The notes under the pieces: model-generated
What the model was told of the DNA's origin: nothing
What the model saw: only the letters and a program-made list of their open reading frames with translations
The model's database searches: none
Made by a program: the position numbers and the translations under genes
Source of the DNA: Isosphaera pallida ATCC 43644
GTDB taxonomy: Bacteria > Planctomycetota > Planctomycetia > Isosphaerales > Isosphaeraceae
DNA: 64,000 nt
NCBI RefSeq assembly: GCF_000186345.1
Contig: NC_014962.1
Span: forward strand, 3,872,450-3,936,449
Reading direction: 5' to 3'
Part shown: piece after piece, positions 45,020-53,773 of the stretch
Layout: the number at the start of each line of letters is the position of its first letter
Numbering within the stretch: the first letter of the stretch is position 1

Positions 45020-46132
45020 TCATGCGTCCAACGACTTGAGCCACTCGACGAAATGAGTCACCCCTTCCTCGAAGGACGTGACGGGTGACCAGCCCAACAA
45101 CGAACGGGCGCGACGAATGTCGGCCCGAGTTCGCCCCACGTCGCCCGGCTGTTCGGGAAGACGTTCAATCCGGGCCGGACGACCCAACGCCGCCGCCAGG
45201 GTGTCAATCATCGTGGACAACCGAACTGGCTCAGAATGGCCTAGGTTGAAGACCTCCACCTCTTGGGACGATTGGGGAGACGGCTCGAACACCAACGCCC
45301 GGACCACGCCATCCACCAGATCATCGACATAGGTGTAGTCGCGTTCTGTGGAACCGTCGCCAAACATAGGGACGGGGCGGCCTTCCCGAATCAGCCGGGC
45401 GAACTTCGCCAGCGCCAGATCGGGACGATTACGCGGCCCGAAGGCGGTGAAGAAACGCAAAATGATCGTGGGGATCGGTGGGGCGTCCGGGTTGATCTGG
45501 CGGAGTCGGAGCGTGCGGGCGTGGTGAAAAGCCCGAACCGCGAGTTCGGCGGATGCCTTGGAGGCGGCGTAGGGAGAGACCGGGCGATCGATGGGGTCGG
45601 TCTCTACGAAGCCTTGGTGGGGATCGTCATGGCGACGGTCACCGTACACGCTGGAACTCGAGGCGAACACCAGGCGGGGACCACGCCCCGACTCCTCTAA
45701 GGTGTCGAGATGCTTCAAGGCGTCAAGCAGACGGATGGTTCCGACCACGTTGGTATCGAAATAGTCGGCGGGGGATTCGAGGCTCGGTCGAACCCCGGCT
45801 TTGGCCGCGAGGTGGGCGACTAGGTCGGGCCGAAACTCCCGAAGATGCCGCTCCAAGGCCGCTCCATCGCGCAAGTCGGCCTCGATCAAACGGAACCGCG
45901 TGACATGACGGCTCCGCGCCAATTGGAGATTTGCCTGCTTGACCGTGCGGGGATAAAACGGGTCGAAGTTATCCAGCGCCAGAACGTCGGCTCCTAGCTC
46001 AAGCAGCCGGTCGACCAATCTCGACCCGATGAATCCCGCTCCCCCGGTCACGACGACCCGCGCGCTGCTCAGGCGGCCGAGATCGGGTTCGTCGGTGGGC
46101 GACGGCGACGTAAGCAGGGTGTTGCGACTCAT
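45020..46132 (-). CDS. NAD-dependent nucleotide-sugar epimerase/dehydratase
   Basis: The 370-residue short-chain dehydrogenase/reductase has VVVTGGAGFIGSRLVDRLLE for NAD binding, a DNFDPFYP turn, HLAAKAGVRPSLESP and the catalytic YAASKAS (YxxxK) with VFASSSSVYGD. The DNFDPFYPRTVK and GVRPSLE patterns fit UDP-glucuronate 4-epimerase-like enzymes. ATG 46132 is chosen over 46150 because it overlaps the upstream stop as ATGA. It is the third gene of a coupled run with the secreted 994-residue protein and PIMT, suggesting a link to surface or exported glycan. Confidence 0.88.
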   Translation of the reverse strand: MSRNTLLTSPSPTDEPDLGRLSSARVVVTGGAGFIGSRLVDRLLELGADVLALDNFDPFYPRTVKQANLQLARSRHVTRFRLIEADLRDGAALERHLREFRPDLVAHLAAKAGVRPSLESPADYFDTNVVGTIRLLDALKHLDTLEESGRGPRLVFASSSSVYGDRRHDDPHQGFVETDPIDRPVSPYAASKASAELAVRAFHHARTLRLRQINPDAPPIPTIILRFFTAFGPRNRPDLALAKFARLIREGRPVPMFGDGSTERDYTYVDDLVDGVVRALVFEPSPQSSQEVEVFNLGHSEPVRLSTMIDTLAAALGRPARIERLPEQPGDVGRTRADIRRARSLLGWSPVTSFEEGVTHFVEWLKSLDA

Positions 46133-49113
46133 TCCACCACGACCTCCCAATGAAGGGTGGCGATCGCTTGATCGTTGGTCAAAGTCCAGGCCACCTCGCC
46201 TCGATTGGGGTCGGTGACGACTTGGGGCGGCTTCGAGCTAGCGCGGGGGCGTCCGGCTTCGTCGAGTGGCAACACTCGGACTTGGCCCTGCGTCGCGGTG
46301 GGGGATCTCCAAATCAGGCCAATCGTCAAAGGCTCGATTCGCAGCGGTGGTCGTCCGGGGTCGGCCACCTCGGTTTTCCAGCAGTCGGCCCAACGAAACC
46401 CGGTGGGTCGGACCCGTCCGACCGCCGTGATTAGCAGACGGCGCGACTCGGAAAGGCCGCGGCCATCCCACGCGGTCACGGCGATGGTTTGGGCTGGGCT
46501 GCGGGGATCGAGTCGAACGGAGAACGGGCCGACTGTCGCCAACCGGCCCGGCACCTGGGACGCGACGCCCACGGTGGTCGGCCCCTCGAAGACGAACCAA
46601 CCGGGTTCGCGTCCCAGGGTATGGGTCACGCTGCCCTCGCGGTGGCGGAACAACGCCGAGGCGTGCGGCAACAACCCGAACAGACCGGGATGGGCGTTGA
46701 CCACCCCCGAGAGGCGCACAAGGTCGGAACCGCCGCCCGTCCCCGGCGCGGAGGCTCCCCACGGGTCGGGGTGCCGGAACAGGCCGCGACGAATCACCGC
46801 CGACCATCCCTCCGACGCCCCCACGGCCGTCACCGCCATCAGATCAAGGCTGTCGGCGTCGTTGGCCCAGGCTCCCCAACCACCCCGCGCCCAATGCCCC
46901 AGCACATAGGCACGGCCACGCTCCTCGGCTTTGAGCCGTTTGGAACGGGTTGGCGCAATCAGACGCGATTCGCCGTCCCACGCCAAACCACGACGCTCCG
47001 GAGCACTGAAGCGGGGGTCGCCCAACAAGAGACGATCATCTACCACCTCAAGACCATCAATGGTCTGAGCGTCGAGGAATTCCGTTGAACGCTGTGGATG
47101 CGAAGCCCCGGCTAGGGGGGAGCGTAGACCAACTTGTGATCGGAGAACCCTCACCCATTCCGACCAGGCAGCCGATTCCCACCGCTTCCAGAACGCTGAA
47201 CCCCGCGCAGCGCGATTCCGAAACCGGGGATCGTCGCGGTATCGCTCGAGATCGAAGGCGGAGTGGTCGCCCGCCAGGGCGACCCAGGCCAAACCGGGAT
47301 CGTTCGCCAGCGTAACCGAATTGGCCGACCGGCTTAGACGGAACAGACCGGCAGCGAACTCGCGGGCCAGTTCCCCCACGATGGGATCGAACCCCACAGC
47401 GGGTCCACCGCCCGGAGGCAGGTCGCGTAGCGCGACCGCATCCTCACCCCGACCTTGTGCATCGCCCACGCGGAAACGACGACGGGATTGGAGGTCAATG
47501 GTCCATCGGAGGCCGCGCGACGCCAGAGCGTCGAGAAACCGGGTGAACCGGTCCGACGATTCAAGGTCCAAGACGCGGGTGTCGTCCCGAAACGGGTCGA
47601 TCAAACTCGATCCTGGACCAAACGCCCCGTCGGGATCGCTCACGCGGACCAGATCGACGCCGGAGGCGGCCAAGCGATCGGCCCAGCGTTCGGCCTGCTC
47701 GGCGTCCTCCGGCAGCATCGTGGGACCGATCAAGCTCAAACCAAACAACGGCCGCGGCAACGTGGATTCGTCTGCTTCCCCCCCCTCAACCAAACGACCC
47801 GCGACGACCTTGAGGGGGCGAAGGGTCGCCGAGGCGGCTGGGACCGCCTCAGCCGGGTCGGAGTCCGGTCGATTAAGGGGCCAGCGGGACGCATCAAGCG
47901 GCGAACCGGGTACGATGCGATCGACCGGTTGGTAAACCGGCCAGGTGTCGGCGGTCAAAGCGTCGGCGTCCACGCTGGGCGTCTCGACTGACCAGGTGCC
48001 CGCTGAAGGGTCGGGCTGGGTGAGAATTTGGAAGTCGTCGAGTCGAATCGAACCGAAAGAGTCGAGTTTGTCGATTTGAAGGACGGCGCGATGGGTGCCG
48101 GCGGGGAGGCTGACGAGTTTCACCACGGGTTTCCAGTCGAATGAGCCGGTCAACTGGGCGAGCAGGGATTCGCCCACGATCCCGCCCGCGCGATCGAGTG
48201 AAAACAAGCGAATCACCACGCCACCCCGCGCGCGAAGTCCTGTGGCTTTGGCCATGAAACGGATCTCGACCGACCTGACCTGGTCCAAGGTGATCGCCAA
48301 ACCACAAGACGCCCGCGATCGAGAGGAGGACAGTTCGAGAGCCGAATCGGAACGCCAGCCAGGATGGACCCGTCGCGCCCCTTGCTCCAAGCTCCAACCG
48401 TGGACCCATGAACCACAACCCCACTCGAATCCGGGATTGCGAACCAAGTTGGATGAGGAAATCAACGGTTGTCTTGGTTGAAAGACGATGGTCAGACCGT
48501 CGAAGTCAATCTGTCCGGTCGCGCCATGAAGCCCCAGCGCGAGGATCGCCTCGTTGGTGCCGACGGGGATTGGGAAGACCTGAGCCAATTTGACCCATTC
48601 GCCGTCCGAGTTATTGCGGGAGGTCGCTTCGGAGTCGGGATCACCGTCGGCCTCAAGGACTAACACGCCGGTGGCCACGAGATCGTCGCCCAGCAGGTCG
48701 ATGACTAAACCGGGCCGTTGTCCTTCGCGTTCTCCGGGGCCGATGGTCTGGGTTCGGACCCATACGGCAACCTCGATCGCGCCGACGTGCCGCCAGGGAA
48801 TTTCCAGGCCGCGGTGCGCGCGGCTGGGGCGTCCCGGCTGGTCGGCCTCGAACCTCAAAACGCCCGGACCCGATCCCGGAGCGCCGGGGTCGTCGCGTCG
48901 CAGTTGCCAGTCACGGATGTTGAACCATCCGTCGGGAATACCGTCGCCGTCGGCGTCGGTTTGAAAGTCGTCCCGCAACGGGGGGGGAGTGGGTTGCGCG
49001 TGCGACCGGTGGCAGCACCACGGCGCAGGCGCGAGACCGAGCCCCAGAACCAGAGCCAACCATCCTCCGCCGATCAACTGGCGTGTCGTTGGACTCCACC
49101 CACGCCGCGTCAT
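46129..49113 (-). CDS. Large secreted protein with glycosidase-like architecture
   Basis: The 994-residue protein has a membrane or signal segment (LIGGGWLALVLGLGLAP). A calcium-type motif DADGDGIPDGW follows. Two jelly-roll-like domains are at about residues 45-215 and 225-365 (VRNPGFEWGCGSWVHGWSLE is carbohydrate-module-like). Residues about 440-780 look like an alpha/beta barrel (LAASGVDLVRVSDPDGAF, LASRGLRWTIDLQS), followed by beta-rich C-terminal domains. This order fits a glycoside hydrolase with carbohydrate-binding modules, but I cannot place it in a family or identify the two acidic catalytic residues. It overlaps PIMT upstream and the epimerase downstream by ATGA. Confidence 0.65.
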   Translation of the reverse strand: MTRRGWSPTTRQLIGGGWLALVLGLGLAPAPWCCHRSHAQPTPPPLRDDFQTDADGDGIPDGWFNIRDWQLRRDDPGAPGSGPGVLRFEADQPGRPSRAHRGLEIPWRHVGAIEVAVWVRTQTIGPGEREGQRPGLVIDLLGDDLVATGVLVLEADGDPDSEATSRNNSDGEWVKLAQVFPIPVGTNEAILALGLHGATGQIDFDGLTIVFQPRQPLISSSNLVRNPGFEWGCGSWVHGWSLEQGARRVHPGWRSDSALELSSSRSRASCGLAITLDQVRSVEIRFMAKATGLRARGGVVIRLFSLDRAGGIVGESLLAQLTGSFDWKPVVKLVSLPAGTHRAVLQIDKLDSFGSIRLDDFQILTQPDPSAGTWSVETPSVDADALTADTWPVYQPVDRIVPGSPLDASRWPLNRPDSDPAEAVPAASATLRPLKVVAGRLVEGGEADESTLPRPLFGLSLIGPTMLPEDAEQAERWADRLAASGVDLVRVSDPDGAFGPGSSLIDPFRDDTRVLDLESSDRFTRFLDALASRGLRWTIDLQSRRRFRVGDAQGRGEDAVALRDLPPGGGPAVGFDPIVGELAREFAAGLFRLSRSANSVTLANDPGLAWVALAGDHSAFDLERYRDDPRFRNRAARGSAFWKRWESAAWSEWVRVLRSQVGLRSPLAGASHPQRSTEFLDAQTIDGLEVVDDRLLLGDPRFSAPERRGLAWDGESRLIAPTRSKRLKAEERGRAYVLGHWARGGWGAWANDADSLDLMAVTAVGASEGWSAVIRRGLFRHPDPWGASAPGTGGGSDLVRLSGVVNAHPGLFGLLPHASALFRHREGSVTHTLGREPGWFVFEGPTTVGVASQVPGRLATVGPFSVRLDPRSPAQTIAVTAWDGRGLSESRRLLITAVGRVRPTGFRWADCWKTEVADPGRPPLRIEPLTIGLIWRSPTATQGQVRVLPLDEAGRPRASSKPPQVVTDPNRGEVAWTLTNDQAIATLHWEVVVE

Positions 49114-50057
49114 CCACGACCTCCCTTGTCAGAGCCTTTTTTCTGGTCGGGAGCGGCCGGCGGATTTTCGCCTTCGCCCTTGGGGCGGCTGGGCGTGAGG
49201 ACTTTGCGCGACTTGGCTTCTTCGGCGGCGCGGCCGGTCATCGGCACGAACAGAGTGGGCAAGGTCGGACCGCCCACGAGTTTGCCGTCGCGCTTGGTGT
49301 AGATATGAACGTTTTGATTGTAACGATCACCCAGAGGGATGACCATCCGACCGCCCTCTTTGAGTTGTTCGATCAAAGGAGGCGGAATATTCTCAGGCGA
49401 ACAGGTGACGATCACTGCGTCGAACGGCGCAGCTTCGGGCCAACCGGCGTAGCCGTCTCCCACGCGGGTGAACACATTGTCGTAGCCGAGTTCCTTGAGT
49501 GTTCGGGCCGCCGTTTCTCCCAGGGATCGGTGGATTTCGACCGAATAGACCGCCTTGACCAGTCGGGAGAGGATCGCCGCTTGGTAACCTGACCCGGTGC
49601 CGACCTCGTAAACCACATCCTCGGGATCGGGTTCCAGCGCTTGGGTCATATAGGCGACAATCGAGGGGGAGGAGATTGTTTGACCTTCGCCGATGGGCAA
49701 CGCGGTGTCCTCGTAAGCCAGCGGCCAGGATTTGCGGGGGAGGAAGCGGTGACGGGGCACGGTGCGGAACGCCTCCAACACCCGTTCGTCGCGGATGCCG
49801 CGCTCTTTGAGGTGGCGTTCGACCATCCTCAACCGGGCGGCTTTGTAAGGGTCTTGGGGTGGAGAGGGTTGGGAGGTGGGCTTCATAGGAGCCTCCGGGT
49901 TGGCAGGAGGTTGCGCCCAGGCGTCGCGCGGACCCATTCCGGCGAGGACCAGGACCAACGCCCCGACCCCCACCGGGATGGGTCGTCGGATTGGCTCGAG
50001 GATCGACCACGACGTGGGAATTGTTGATTCCCCGCGGTTTGGGATGTTCAAGGTCAT
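49110..50057 (-). CDS. pcm: Exported protein-L-isoaspartate O-methyltransferase
   Basis: The 315-residue protein starts at ATG 50057, right after AAGGAGG, and has an N-terminal hydrophobic segment (PIPVGVGALVLVLAGMGPRD, about residues 26-45) ending in AWAQ, a likely signal peptide. The core is PIMT: VPRHRFLPRKSWPLAYEDTA, GEGQTISSPSIVAYM, and the SAM site VVYEVGTGSGYQAAIL. PIMT repairs isoaspartyl residues and is normally cytoplasmic. Export would need extracytoplasmic SAM, which is not usually available, so either the enzyme is only membrane-anchored facing in, or the substrate is unusual. The tail is charged and Pro-rich. It overlaps the 994-residue gene by ATGA. Confidence 0.88.
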   Translation of the reverse strand: MTLNIPNRGESTIPTSWSILEPIRRPIPVGVGALVLVLAGMGPRDAWAQPPANPEAPMKPTSQPSPPQDPYKAARLRMVERHLKERGIRDERVLEAFRTVPRHRFLPRKSWPLAYEDTALPIGEGQTISSPSIVAYMTQALEPDPEDVVYEVGTGSGYQAAILSRLVKAVYSVEIHRSLGETAARTLKELGYDNVFTRVGDGYAGWPEAAPFDAVIVTCSPENIPPPLIEQLKEGGRMVIPLGDRYNQNVHIYTKRDGKLVGGPTLPTLFVPMTGRAAEEAKSRKVLTPSRPKGEGENPPAAPDQKKGSDKGGRG

Positions 50058-50362
50058 CCCATGCCTCCTTTCCCCAACGAGGTGGTTGGAACCGACCCCC
50101 TTACGCTGCCCGAAGCCAACCCGAATCTTCGAACAACCGCAACGCTTTTTGGTACGGGTCGTTCGACCTTCTTGGTTCGGCCCGGCAATCTTAGCTGTCG
50201 GATCAAGCCACGACCACCACAATCGATGATCCTTGGAGCGGGATCGCCGCGCAATCGTTCGTTCCTGAGCAACCAACCCCAGGGTTCGCAAACCTCTGCC
50301 GCAGGCGGTGGAACGCGCGGGGACGATTCCCTTCCCGGGCCGCGGTTGGCCAGCCAGCGCCG

Positions 50363-53300
50363 TCAGGGTTGGCGACGTGCCCGCAGGGCTTGGAGCATCT
50401 TGGTCAGATTCGCCCGCGCCACGTCTCGGGGAAATTGCGTTGGCCTCGCATTCGGCGAATCGCCCGCTCGATCAAACGCTTGAATCGCGCGCTCGATTGC
50501 GACAATCGCTTGATCGACTTGTCCTTCCTCCGCTAGCGCGGCTCCCAAGTTGGCGTGGAACCGAAAATCGTCCGGGGCTTGCTCGCTGAGTTGATGCCAA
50601 ATGGCCATCGCCTCTGAACGCCGCCCCAGCATGACCAGGGTGATCGCCAGATCCGATCGGGTTTCAAGATCGTCCGGATCAAGCGCCAACGCCTTCTCAA
50701 ACATTTCCAACGCTTGAGCATGCTTCCGTGCCTGCGTAGAGAATGAGGCCAACATCAAGTAAGGTCGGCGTTGACGCGGGGCCAATTGAGTCGCCCGAAG
50801 CAAAACCGCTTCGATCTCTGCCCCGAAGACCTTCATCCCCGGGTCAAGTTTCTTCAACATCGCCGCGAGATCGGCCAGGTTCTCCCAAGAGTCCGGTTCC
50901 AATGCGACCATGATCCGCTGGTGTTCAACCGCCTCCTCGACGCGATGGATCGACTCAAGAATCGCTCTTGAATCGAGATGAAGACGTGGCGAGATCGGTT
51001 CCGTCGCCAAGGCGCATTGAAGATGATGAACAGCGCGATCCAGCTCTTGACGCTTGGCGAAGATGCGAGCGAGTTCCAACTGAACATCAGTCTCCAGAGG
51101 TGCGAGCCGCGCGGCTCGCTCTGTGACGGTCAACGCCTCGTCGTCTTGGCCCATTTCTCTGAGGAGGTGGCTCTGAAGCAGCAGTGGTCGCCAAGAGGAG
51201 GGTTGGAGTTCGGCTTCCCGTCGTGCAATCTCAAGCACTTCGGCGGATCGCTTTTGACGAAAGAGGACTCTCGATAGGCTATACAAAAGCAGCGTGTTGT
51301 CGGGTTCCAGACTCAGAGCCGAGCGCAGCAGATTTTCAGCCTCGGCGTGATGCCCTAGTTCGGAGAGGCAAGTGGCCAGGTTGAGACGTCCCAGGGCCAG
51401 ATCGGGGCTGATCTGGAGCGCCTTGCGATGGAGGATCAACGCCTCGTCGAACCGCTTCAATTTCCGCAACGCCAGGGCCAGGTTGTTGATGGCGGCGAAG
51501 TTGTCCGGGCGAATCGCCCGCGCGGTGCCGAAAGCCCGGACGGCTCGCTCCAGGCTGTCGGTGTGGGACTGTTCCCGGGACAAAATATTGCCAAGGTGAA
51601 GATGAAGCCAGAATTCTTCGGGATGACGAAGAATCGCCTGTTCTAAAACCCTGGTCGCGTCGCCTCCCGCCCGATCTAAGGCGTAGGCGATCAGTTGGAT
51701 CAACCCGAGCTTGTCCGGGGGGATCTCTTCAAGAATCCGATAAAGCGCTTGCAGGCTGATCTTGGAGGACCAATCAAGTTCCGCGAGTCTAAAATAGGCT
51801 GATTCGCCCGTCGCCAAATGCTGGATGCGGAGTAGGCGCGTGCGAACTTCGTCGCGGGAGGCCTCGACGATCCAGTCGTCCAAGGCGTCGCTCAAGCGGG
51901 GGAACGACGGCGCGGTTCGCAGGATTTGGGCGAGGACGGTGTCGTCGGGGTTGACCAGGTCAAAGCCGATGCGTCGGAGACGCTCGGCATAGCGATCCTC
52001 AACCTTAGGAAACCCCTCCGGCCCCCATTGAGCGCGGTCCAGGCGGATCTCTTCCAGGTCGCGTTCCAGCGTCAACTGCTCGGCGAGGTGTTGGACCTGG
52101 TCGATGACGGAGTGATCTTCCAGAGACAAGGCGAGCAACTGCGCTTCGGCAAGTTCGTTGAGACCGAGGTTCCAAAGCCGGCGTTGCCGAGCCTCTTCAG
52201 CCTGGATCAGGCGGTTTTGAAGCGTGGTCCAGGTGGTCTCGCGCTGGGCTTGGCGTTGCCTAAGCCACTCCAGGCCAACAAACCCGCCCACTAGGATTGC
52301 AAGAGCCAAGAGGAAGCCGATGCGGCGGCGTTTGCGCTCCTCGGCGAGTTGGGTCATTTGCACGGCGGCGTCGAGTTCAGCGCGACGGGCACGGGCTTCA
52401 GTCTCGTCCAGCAGCGAGGAGACCAGTTGCGCGACTTCCACGGCGTTGGCAGGCCGCTTGAGCGGTTGAGGGTCGAGACAACGTCGGCAAAGGTCTTTCC
52501 ACTGGGGTTCGACGGGAGCTTGTTCCAGCAAGGCGAAAGCGTCGTCCAGGTCGGCCATCGCCGCCTTGCGCAGGAGTTCGGCCCGCGAGGCGGCGACGTA
52601 GGGGGGGCGACCAGTGAGGATGACGCAAAGCAACCCCCCCAAGCCAAACACGTCGGCCGCGGGAGTCAGGTGATGAGGGTCGCCGTCGGCCTGCTCGGGT
52701 GCCATGTAGGCCGGCGTTCCCATCCCCTCCCAGCTCTCGGGTGAGGAATCGACCATCATCGCCACGTCGAGAAGGGTTGATTTCGTCAACTCCCGCGCGC
52801 GAGGGACCCGGCGTCGAGACCACTCGTTGAGATCTTTGGCCAGTCCCCAGTCCATGACCTGAACTTCGCCAAAATCCCCCACCATGATGTTAGACGGTTT
52901 CAGGTCGCGGTGTAAAATCCCACGCCGATGCGCGTGCGCCAAACCTTCACAAATTTTTAAGTAAATACTTAGAAACTTTGGTAACTCGTCCGACGAACCC
53001 ACACGGGATGTCAGAAGCTCGCTCAGGGTGCGGCCCTGAATCAGCTTCATGGCCAGAAACGGGCGACCATCCCCCCAGACACTCAATTCGTACACTGGAG
53101 GAATCGAAGGATGTTCTAATCTTCCGGTGATTTTAGCTTCATTGACGAAACGTTGTCGCAGATCCGGGTTGGACGCCAGCGAGTCGTTGAGGACCTTGAG
53201 GGCGACGCGGCGTTCCATCTCCAGGTCGAACGCTTTGAGGACAAACCCCATGCCGCCGCGCGCCAACGGTTCTTCGATCAAGTAGCGTCCCACTCGCATC

Positions 53301-53455
53301 CCCGGAGCGATTGTCTGGCGGAAGGACCGCTCGCAACTTGAAGAAGGTTTCAAACTGGGGGCGGTTGGCTGCGAGTCTAGCAAGGGGGGTTCGCTATTCC
53401 GCGGCGGATACTGCCAAGGCCATCTCGAACCTGTTGGATTGAATTGTTGGGACAT
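50363..53455 (-). CDS. Receptor-like Ser/Thr protein kinase with TPR domain
   Basis: The 1030-residue protein has a kinase domain (about residues 55-350): glycine loop LARGGMGFVLKAF, catalytic Lys87, HRDLKPSNIM with Asp184, MDWGLAKD (DWG in place of DFG, as often in planctomycetes) and MAPEQA. A membrane helix at about 379-397 (IGFLLALAILVGGFVGLEWL) follows. The rest is helical, with tetratricopeptide repeats from about residue 600 on (for example NNLALALRKLKRFDEALILHRKALQ). It probably senses or scaffolds proteins on the far side of the membrane. The TPR gene upstream is on the same strand, 318 bases away. Confidence 0.92.
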   Translation of the reverse strand: MSQQFNPTGSRWPWQYPPRNSEPPLLDSQPTAPSLKPSSSCERSFRQTIAPGMRVGRYLIEEPLARGGMGFVLKAFDLEMERRVALKVLNDSLASNPDLRQRFVNEAKITGRLEHPSIPPVYELSVWGDGRPFLAMKLIQGRTLSELLTSRVGSSDELPKFLSIYLKICEGLAHAHRRGILHRDLKPSNIMVGDFGEVQVMDWGLAKDLNEWSRRRVPRARELTKSTLLDVAMMVDSSPESWEGMGTPAYMAPEQADGDPHHLTPAADVFGLGGLLCVILTGRPPYVAASRAELLRKAAMADLDDAFALLEQAPVEPQWKDLCRRCLDPQPLKRPANAVEVAQLVSSLLDETEARARRAELDAAVQMTQLAEERKRRRIGFLLALAILVGGFVGLEWLRQRQAQRETTWTTLQNRLIQAEEARQRRLWNLGLNELAEAQLLALSLEDHSVIDQVQHLAEQLTLERDLEEIRLDRAQWGPEGFPKVEDRYAERLRRIGFDLVNPDDTVLAQILRTAPSFPRLSDALDDWIVEASRDEVRTRLLRIQHLATGESAYFRLAELDWSSKISLQALYRILEEIPPDKLGLIQLIAYALDRAGGDATRVLEQAILRHPEEFWLHLHLGNILSREQSHTDSLERAVRAFGTARAIRPDNFAAINNLALALRKLKRFDEALILHRKALQISPDLALGRLNLATCLSELGHHAEAENLLRSALSLEPDNTLLLYSLSRVLFRQKRSAEVLEIARREAELQPSSWRPLLLQSHLLREMGQDDEALTVTERAARLAPLETDVQLELARIFAKRQELDRAVHHLQCALATEPISPRLHLDSRAILESIHRVEEAVEHQRIMVALEPDSWENLADLAAMLKKLDPGMKVFGAEIEAVLLRATQLAPRQRRPYLMLASFSTQARKHAQALEMFEKALALDPDDLETRSDLAITLVMLGRRSEAMAIWHQLSEQAPDDFRFHANLGAALAEEGQVDQAIVAIERAIQAFDRAGDSPNARPTQFPRDVARANLTKMLQALRARRQP

Positions 53456-53773
53456 CGTTAATCTCGTTTGAGAGTGAGAAAGTTCACCCATCACGGAAAC
53501 TCAAGAGTGCAATGGTCACACCGTATCGATTTTTGGGTTCACGACTGCTGATCGTCAAGAGTCGCGCCGCCAAGCTGACGCGCCCCCGCGCATGGTGGCG
53601 ATCCCGGACAAAATGGAAATGAGAAATGGAGGGAAGCCGATTCCCAAGATATATTTAGAAATGAAAGATTGATCGGATTGAGGGATGAACCTTGATCCGA
53701 CCGCCAACCGGTGGGGTTTGGCGATGGAGAAGGCAGCGAGGAGGGTGCGGCGGATCGCCCTGGTTGGGGCAAG
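53456..53773. promoter_or_regulatory. Upstream region of the kinase-TPR gene
   Basis: This 318-base gap lies between two minus-strand genes. An AT-rich island at about 53640-53690 (AAGATATATTTAGAAATG on the plus strand) is the best promoter candidate for the kinase. No gene is seen. Confidence 0.35.

Follow-up and report, generated by a model that had tools for sequence, protein, structure and literature searches.

Here we analyze three consecutive minus-strand genes in a 64,000-nucleotide stretch of the Isosphaera pallida ATCC 43644 genome (contig NC_014962.1, positions 3,872,450 to 3,936,449), which we refer to as the window. The genome comprises 5,529,304 bases in two contigs. In the direction in which they are read, the genes encode a protein-L-isoaspartate O-methyltransferase (PIMT) with an export-type N terminus, a large protein predicted to be secreted (the partner), and a nucleotide-sugar epimerase (Table 1). 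A first-pass annotation had taken the ATGA overlaps at both junctions, together with this gene content, as a sign that all three genes serve one process, perhaps the construction or repair of an exported glycoprotein, which is a speculative role. The overlaps are real, and the coordinates given for them are correct. By themselves they prove little, because 4-base in-frame overlaps are not rare in GC-rich genomes. By reasoning rather than computation, we estimate that a random 4-base overlap with an in-frame start would be found at about one in four TGA stops.

The PIMT of the window matches the Pfam PCMT family over its catalytic domain (203.8 bits) and passes two equivalog models, PRK00312 (228.6 bits, cut-off 188) and TIGR00080 (205.4 bits, cut-off 159.05), while missing other PIMT models such as PRK13942 (200.9 against a cut-off of 282). 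Its motifs are invariant or almost so in an alignment of orthologs (A2), with EVGTGSG and the Q invariant and QT almost invariant, and they are largely common to E. coli Pcm. We take GxGxG to bind S-adenosylmethionine (SAM) and QTIS to form the substrate loop. Methylation of L-isoaspartyl residues is its predicted activity. It is the sole full PCMT match in the I. pallida genome (205 bits; next 39 bits), so the only PIMT of this species would be an exported one. Pcm/PCMT1 enzymes (E. coli 3lbf and V. cholerae 4l7v) share the same catalytic domain, SAM and substrate motifs, and fold, but here there is a predicted N-terminal export signal and a coupled or, in relatives, fused jelly-roll partner. 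The E. coli pcm gene, which has 627 bases and lies beside umpG and nlpD, has no comparable N-terminal extension.

Table 1. Features of the PIMT locus, with positions in the window and residue numbers of the encoded proteins
Feature	Position	Strand	Length or residues	Remarks
PIMT gene	49110..50057	-	315 aa + stop	Protein-L-isoaspartate O-methyltransferase; Pfam and NCBIfam matches
Partner gene	46129..49113	-	994 aa + stop	Predicted secreted multi-domain protein, without Pfam/NCBIfam family
Epimerase gene	45020..46132	-	370 aa + stop	NAD-dependent nucleotide-sugar epimerase/dehydratase; Pfam PF01370; optional neighbour
AAGGAGG, ribosome-binding-site-like	50064..50070	-		6 bases 5' of the PIMT ATG at 50057; read from sequence
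ATGA overlap, partner ATG/PIMT TGA	49110..49113	-		Read from sequence
ATGA overlap, epimerase ATG/partner TGA	46129..46132	-		Read from sequence
PIMT signal-peptide-like N terminus	49914..50057	-	1-48	RR, hydrophobic core, and AWA/Q site, with a Pro-rich linker behind them; heuristic
PIMT catalytic domain	49230..49817	-	81-276	Pfam PF01135; motifs GQTISSP, EVGTGSGYQ, GDGY, FVPMTG
Partner signal-peptide-like N terminus	48997..49113	-	1-39	SHA/Q; passes the strict heuristic rule
DADGDGIPD calcium-type loop	48931..48957	-	53-61	Start of jelly roll 1
Partner jelly roll 1	48472..48978	-	46-214	hhalign homology to the C-terminal domain of fused PIMTs; model strands; carbohydrate-module-like fold
Partner jelly roll 2	48016..48450	-	About 222-366	Model strands 241-366
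Partner GH5-like (clan GH-A) barrel	46624..47844	-	About 424-830	Probably non-hydrolytic
General acid/base position	47266..47268	-	616	Asp in the window; Glu in 19/20 relatives, Arg in one
Nucleophile position	46894..46896	-	740	His in the window; Gln in 20/20 relatives
Partner C-terminal beta domain	46132..46599	-	About 839-994	Model strands 839-993

Conservation of the PIMT-partner pair and its neighbors

The partner was found in 44 of 45 Isosphaerales genomes searched, that of the window included. In the exception (G026, 77% complete), there is a 28% match over part of the barrel only. In 40 of the 44 partner-bearing genomes, the PIMT gene is immediately followed by that of the partner, with a gap of no more than 300 bases except in G004 (1065 bases). 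In three of the four non-adjacent genomes (G003, G009, and G015), the partner is at the end of a contig or close to it; in the fourth (G018, 77% complete), no PIMT match was found. All 20 loci examined from 19 other genera contain both genes, which overlap by exactly 4 bases in 15 of these loci, a tally based on the partner start nearest the PIMT stop, which favors short overlaps. This recurrent overlap and the adjacency in 40 of 44 genomes argue that the coupling of PIMT and partner is not due to chance.

In neighbor maps of the 20 loci, built from open reading frames (ORFs) of at least 100 aa, three clusters occur throughout, namely PIMT, partner, and c2, the last of which holds an ORF antisense to the PIMT gene of the window. 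Upstream clusters c4, c6, c8, and c10, partly on the opposite strand, each recur in 8 to 11 of the loci. In the window, the upstream neighbor is a 1043-residue ORF (50363-53494, minus strand) resembling a Ser/Thr protein kinase with TPR-like repeats C-terminal to it. The ORF ends ∼300 bases before the PIMT start; its cluster was not seen as an upstream neighbor in the maps of the 20 other loci.

The third gene is more loosely associated. Its product is clearly an SDR enzyme, with a Pfam Epimerase match of 190.1 bits and the motifs GGAGFIGS (GxxGxxG) and YAASK (YxxxK). It reaches none of the 25 NCBIfam models listed (galE, for example, scores 146.6 against 262.3), and its nearest solved structures are 5u4q and 6zl6. 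A close ortholog (54-60% identity) comes directly after the partner in 19 of 44 genomes; in 16 it is located elsewhere in the genome, and in the remaining 9 none was detected. The 19 include G027, in which the partner is in three pieces and the last piece touches the epimerase. Because of this limited adjacency, we treat the epimerase as optional, and a three-gene system was ruled out on the same count. It perhaps serves the same envelope glycan as the pair. Of the three genes first assigned to a single process, those for PIMT and the large protein form one conserved unit, with export-type N termini on both proteins as judged by a heuristic rule. The gene order is kept in relatives for this pair but only partly for the epimerase.

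Partner domains and PIMT fusions in the Planctomycetia

No match to the partner was found in Pfam, in NCBIfam, or among the sequences of solved structures at an E value of 0.1. Its structure model, which has a mean pLDDT (predicted local distance difference test) of 76.2, consists of two carbohydrate-module-like jelly rolls, a barrel resembling glycoside hydrolase family 5 (GH5), and a beta tail. This agrees with the carbohydrate-module-like domains that had been noticed in the large protein at first pass. The top Foldseek match is the tandem CBM22 structure 4xup (E 7.5e-12), with low TM-scores (0.12/0.33) and a root mean square deviation (rmsd) of 20.9 Å over both domains. Residues D53, D57, D61, and W63, at the calcium-type loop, are invariant in an alignment of partners (A1), and fused PIMTs (see below) carry a similar loop, which may bind calcium.

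The barrel matches GH5 mannanases/mannosidases (VIA-align), with a Z score of 24.4 and rmsd of 3.2 for residues 431-826 against the mannanase 1rh9 (335 aligned) and a Z score of 24.1 against 1uuq, i.e. the same fold at Z 24 over 335-350 residues. Catalysis in GH5 and clan GH-A depends on two glutamates at the ends of β4 and β7. The partner has the GH-A barrel but departs from the two-glutamate rule: as assigned by alignment rather than superposition, the β7 nucleophile Glu is replaced by Gln (His in the window) in 21 of 21 sequences, whereas the acid/base Glu is kept in 19 of 21. Distant planctomycete barrels were alignable in 11 of 16 cases, and all 11 keep NE at β4 and E at β7; the other five (L092, L093, L094, L103, and L115) were set aside since the longest ORF or the alignment was unusable. 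Because the nucleophile is lost, the partner barrel is probably a binding or scaffold domain, not an enzyme. An active glycosidase was rejected on the same ground.

The partner is nonetheless built like a polysaccharide-degrading enzyme, which would fit a role in nutrient salvage. The exported PIMT would then process isoaspartyl (isoAsp) peptides of extracellular protein or detritus, with the glycan-binding part holding the enzyme at its food, much as E. coli Pcm has been proposed to scavenge extracellular aspartate (PMC10857468). We consider this quite improbable. The barrel nucleophile is lost, SAM would, we reason, be spent outside the cell for little gain, and no third sensible gene family lies beside the pair in all 20 loci, although neighbor products are unannotated and a transporter or peptidase is possible in some.

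A different arrangement of the same domains is found elsewhere in the class. The partner profile (A1) matches through its N-terminal domain in same-class families f2, f3, and f5 and in one f4 genome, and in all 11 such loci examined the matched domain continues the PIMT reading frame without a stop. The C-terminal 150 residues of these fused proteins (A3, 11 sequences) align with partner residues 48-214 at an hhalign probability of 99.9 (E 4.4e-32, 27% identity). When the class was searched with the A3 profile, 303 of 397 genomes gave a match. Among the matches listed, at least 150 genomes each have a single stop-free ORF reaching model position 402 or beyond, of 407; as 45 genomes of the window's own family are included in the search, the fusion thus occurs in no fewer than 150 of the remaining 352. 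Blastopirellula marina DSM 3645 and Rhodopirellula solitaria CA85 are two of the strains that carry it. Twenty genomes without a match were listed, 18 of them from family f101; in four members of this family, the PIMT has no such domain. When 28 selected outliers were examined again, a PIMT lacking the domain was seen in f102, f103, f104, f107, G196, G704, G705, and the four f101 genomes, and a fusion, sometimes cut by contig ends, in others. In a sample of the phylum, the fusion was present in 37 of 38 same-class genomes outside the Isosphaerales, and the matches listed from other classes end by approximately position 263, nearly all at ∼240-250, hence without the jelly-roll domain. Occurrence across the order, class, and phylum samples ruled out an oddity of one genome.

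A fused relative was modeled with higher scores (pLDDT 90.5; predicted TM-score, pTM, 0.85). Its first half matches E. coli PIMT 3lbf (Z 32.7, rmsd 1.5, 205 residues), and its second half matches carbohydrate-binding modules, including 4d0q (Z 16.2), CBM16 2zew (Z 15.6), and CBM4-2 4bj0 (Z 14.4). The jelly-roll fold and a DxDxDG-type loop are thus common to CBM4, CBM16, CBM22, the hyaluronan-binding module 4d0q, and the fused domain or partner. Identity in these fold matches is only ∼12-18%, and the fused domain of three fused proteins had no Pfam match at an E value of 1; glycan binding is putative.

The relationship between the split and fused arrangements was assessed in an unrooted tree of 160 PIMT cores, from which rows with <150 core residues were dropped and in which loci L119-L148 were thinned to every third. 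The window PIMT falls in a set of 21 Isosphaerales rows (SH-aLRT, Shimodaira-Hasegawa-like approximate likelihood ratio test, 99) nested in a set of 56 rows (SH-aLRT 99), which holds 32 of the 33 rows labeled fused. The fused row outside it (L256) has a long branch and a 31% match, and is probably not a PIMT. Because their PIMTs form one clade, the split pair and the fusion are, as judged from this tree, orthologous arrangements.

A PIMT fold with an extra C-terminal domain is also found in PIMT homologues of ribosomally synthesized and post-translationally modified peptide (RiPP) pathways. These RiPP-associated PIMTs act inside the cell on a precursor. In lanthimiditide, lassimiditide, and imiditide/pamtide pathways, the extra domain is proposed to recognize the substrate and in most cases carries a WXXXGXP motif (PMC13001092), whereas the extra part of the planctomycete proteins is a jelly roll common in exported proteins. 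Since PIMT relatives serve RiPPs (PMC13001092, PMC8939145), the window PIMT could conceivably form aspartimide or isoAsp in a dedicated precursor of an imiditide or graspetide-like peptide. It is far below the cut-offs of the corresponding NCBIfam models (FxLD, 141.9 against 320; ATP-grasp-system methyltransferase, 124.3 against 380), passes PIMT models, and has no WXXXGXP motif as described in PMC13001092. A RiPP enzyme was rejected for these reasons and strikes us as barely credible, with the proviso that our maps took ORFs of at least 100 aa and short precursor genes were not searched for.

Export-type N termini

N termini were scored using a strict rule, a home-made heuristic rather than SignalP, that requires a basic N-terminal region, a hydrophobic core free of charged residues, and a site of the signal-peptidase (SPase I/II) type. 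Among coupled PIMTs, 17 of 19 passed, as did all fused PIMTs in two sets (30 of 30 and 13 of 13) and 20 of the 21 partners (A1, the window's included). Internal stretches of the same three PIMT groups, used as controls, passed in 0 of 133, 3 of 210, and 4 of 91 cases (7/434 in total). The window PIMT passes. These findings suggest that both PIMT and partner are exported by the Sec route.

The first-pass annotation had mentioned the possibility that the PIMT N terminus is an anchor facing the cytoplasm. In that case the PIMT would act in the cytoplasm, and the partner would be an unrelated exported protein sharing its operon by chance. PIMT needs SAM, which in known bacteria is cytoplasmic, and signal cleavage is a prediction. 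Against this, most orthologs have a basic start, an uncharged core, and an AxA-type site, the two genes are paired in 40 of 44 genomes, and the same PIMT is fused C-terminally to a homologue of the exported partner's domain. Because PIMT and jelly-roll domain are covalently linked in these relatives, they are expected on the same side of the membrane. An anchor is therefore disfavored by the N-terminal features and by fusion to a carbohydrate-module-like domain, and we regard it as very improbable.

Export-type PIMTs are not confined to the fused and coupled forms. Among non-fused relatives, which span Acidobacteria to Bacteroidota with a few planctomycetes of other classes, 48 of 65 scorable proteins pass the strict rule, compared with 9 of 455 internal controls. 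Such PIMTs occur in Acidobacteria, Verrucomicrobia, Bacteroidota, Desulfobacterota, Gemmatimonadetes, and others. Their share is biased upward, because an exported PIMT served as query for collecting the relatives, and of 589 found the best 80 were kept for the tree. In this tree, one branch (SH-aLRT 97) has 134 rows on one side, including all 120 labeled exported and 7 labeled cytoplasmic, labels that rest on a lenient hydrophobicity test also passed by 239 of 905 internal controls. The statement that PIMT is normally cytoplasmic, from which the first-pass annotation set out, is hence too narrow, within a sample drawn with an exported query. Export-type PIMTs outside planctomycetes (L162-L228), some with lipoprotein-like Cys sites, are for the most part separated from cytoplasmic PIMTs by a single branch.

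Some Isosphaerales carry further PIMTs. There is a second export-type kind, several members of which carry a Cys close to where the hydrophobic core ends, and another kind that is apparently cytoplasmic; loci L259-L265, L273-L275 and L267-L272, L277-L278 comprise both. Extra copies in the order pass the strict rule in 9 of 20 cases, compared with 5 of 140 internal controls. Neither kind was found as a full match in the I. pallida genome.

Possible role of an exported PIMT

Isoaspartyl damage builds up with protein age, and extracytoplasmic proteins are thought to be without SAM for repair. The reading we favor, with about even confidence, is that the PIMT of the window methylates isoaspartyl residues outside the cytoplasm and is kept close to glycans by a partner that does not hydrolyze them, and that it represents the Isosphaerales version of an enzyme widespread in the Planctomycetia. 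Elsewhere in the class, a single polypeptide combines the export-type N terminus, the PIMT domain, and the carbohydrate-module-like jelly roll. In the Isosphaerales, this jelly roll is found on a separate, translationally coupled protein, predicted to be secreted, with a second jelly roll, a GH5-like barrel lacking its nucleophile, and a beta tail. Once both proteins were exported via Sec, they would associate, and the jelly rolls and dead barrel would keep the methyltransferase at envelope glycans or glycoproteins. There, it would methylate isoaspartyl residues of long-lived exported proteins, leading to their return to aspartate. At the level of sequence, this reading is supported by the coupling of the genes, their conservation, the homology of the fused and separate domains, the intact PIMT motifs, and the loss of the barrel nucleophile. 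Its weakest link is the SAM that would have to be present outside the cytoplasm.

Several points weigh against it. To our knowledge, there is no SAM source outside the cytoplasm, the search for one in this genome being limited to a membrane protein of the ∼810-aa type described below. Not every member of the class has the fused or split arrangement (94 of 397 genomes lack an A3 match), and fusion elsewhere is evidence for a functional link but not for a complex. Two of the 19 coupled PIMTs and one of the 21 partners fail the home-made signal rule. Meprin and Cry/Vip entries appear in the same structure list as sharing the fold of the fused domain, and because proteins other than sugar-binding modules thus have this jelly roll, we can do no more than infer glycan binding. 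Finally, since E. coli Pcm has been argued to serve aspartate salvage and not primarily repair (PMC10857468), even a repair role is tentative.

An alternative is that the PIMT-fold enzyme is a carboxyl methyltransferase with another target, either the partner or carboxyls of envelope glycans, such as those of uronic acids. The partner would then be the substrate or present it, and the epimerase would fit if it made sugars of the UDP-galacturonate type. This would account for the near-constant pairing with one glycan-protein-like partner, for the nucleotide-sugar epimerase that adjoins in 19 of 44 genomes, and for a jelly roll kept in fused PIMTs, which could deliver the glycan; moreover, RiPP enzymes show that PIMT relatives accept other substrates (PMC13001092). 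We nevertheless judge it unlikely, because the PIMT motifs are intact and two equivalog cut-offs are passed, and export-type PIMTs without a fused domain are common in the sample of relatives. No conserved Asp/Glu acceptor was identified, although none was sought.

Returning to extracytoplasmic repair, we tentatively propose, short of even confidence, a wider scheme in which a dedicated repair methyltransferase belongs to an old export-type PIMT branch found in many phyla, its tie to envelope glycans in the Planctomycetia being the jelly roll, whether fused or carried on a pseudo-glycosidase. If this is true, the periplasm or cell surface must have a supply of SAM or another methyl donor, and an exported PIMT would raise the question of how SAM leaves the cytoplasm. 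With a PIMT that is conserved, intact, and exported and has an anchoring module, extracytoplasmic repair could be tested directly in culturable planctomycetes such as Isosphaera and Blastopirellula. PIMT, carbohydrate-module-like jelly rolls, and pseudo-glycosidases have each been described before, but their combination and export appear new. Among the titles and abstracts listed in open-access literature searches, with subscription journals outside the scope, none describes an exported bacterial PIMT or a planctomycete PIMT-jelly-roll fusion. A comparable case is an Anaplasma O-methyltransferase acting on Msp4, for which modification of an outer-membrane protein within the periplasm has likewise been suggested, but which has no predicted signal peptide; the term 'isoaspart' is absent from the main text of that report (PMC4636158).

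Nine export-type or related PIMTs of Bacteroidota and Proteobacteria precede a homologous membrane protein of ∼810 aa (L185:3133-5568, L192, L201, L207, L211, L214, L216, L222, and L226; in each case downstream of PIMT). It consists of a transmembrane bundle, a spermidine-synthase-like Rossmann domain (PF01564 in L211 and L222), and a second transmembrane bundle, and the members scanned had no whole-length match in Pfam or NCBIfam. A link of this protein to SAM or methyl supply is possible. In the order of the window, only the spermidine-synthase-like Rossmann part was matched, and none was found in two fused-PIMT genomes (L154 and L157). Among the matches listed for neighbors of export-type PIMTs (37/43 downstream and 30/30 upstream), Spermine_synth is the only Pfam family found in more than one member, namely two. 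A PIMT in another unusual setting is chain t of PDB 8qby, which is listed within the structure of Paracoccus respiratory complex I.

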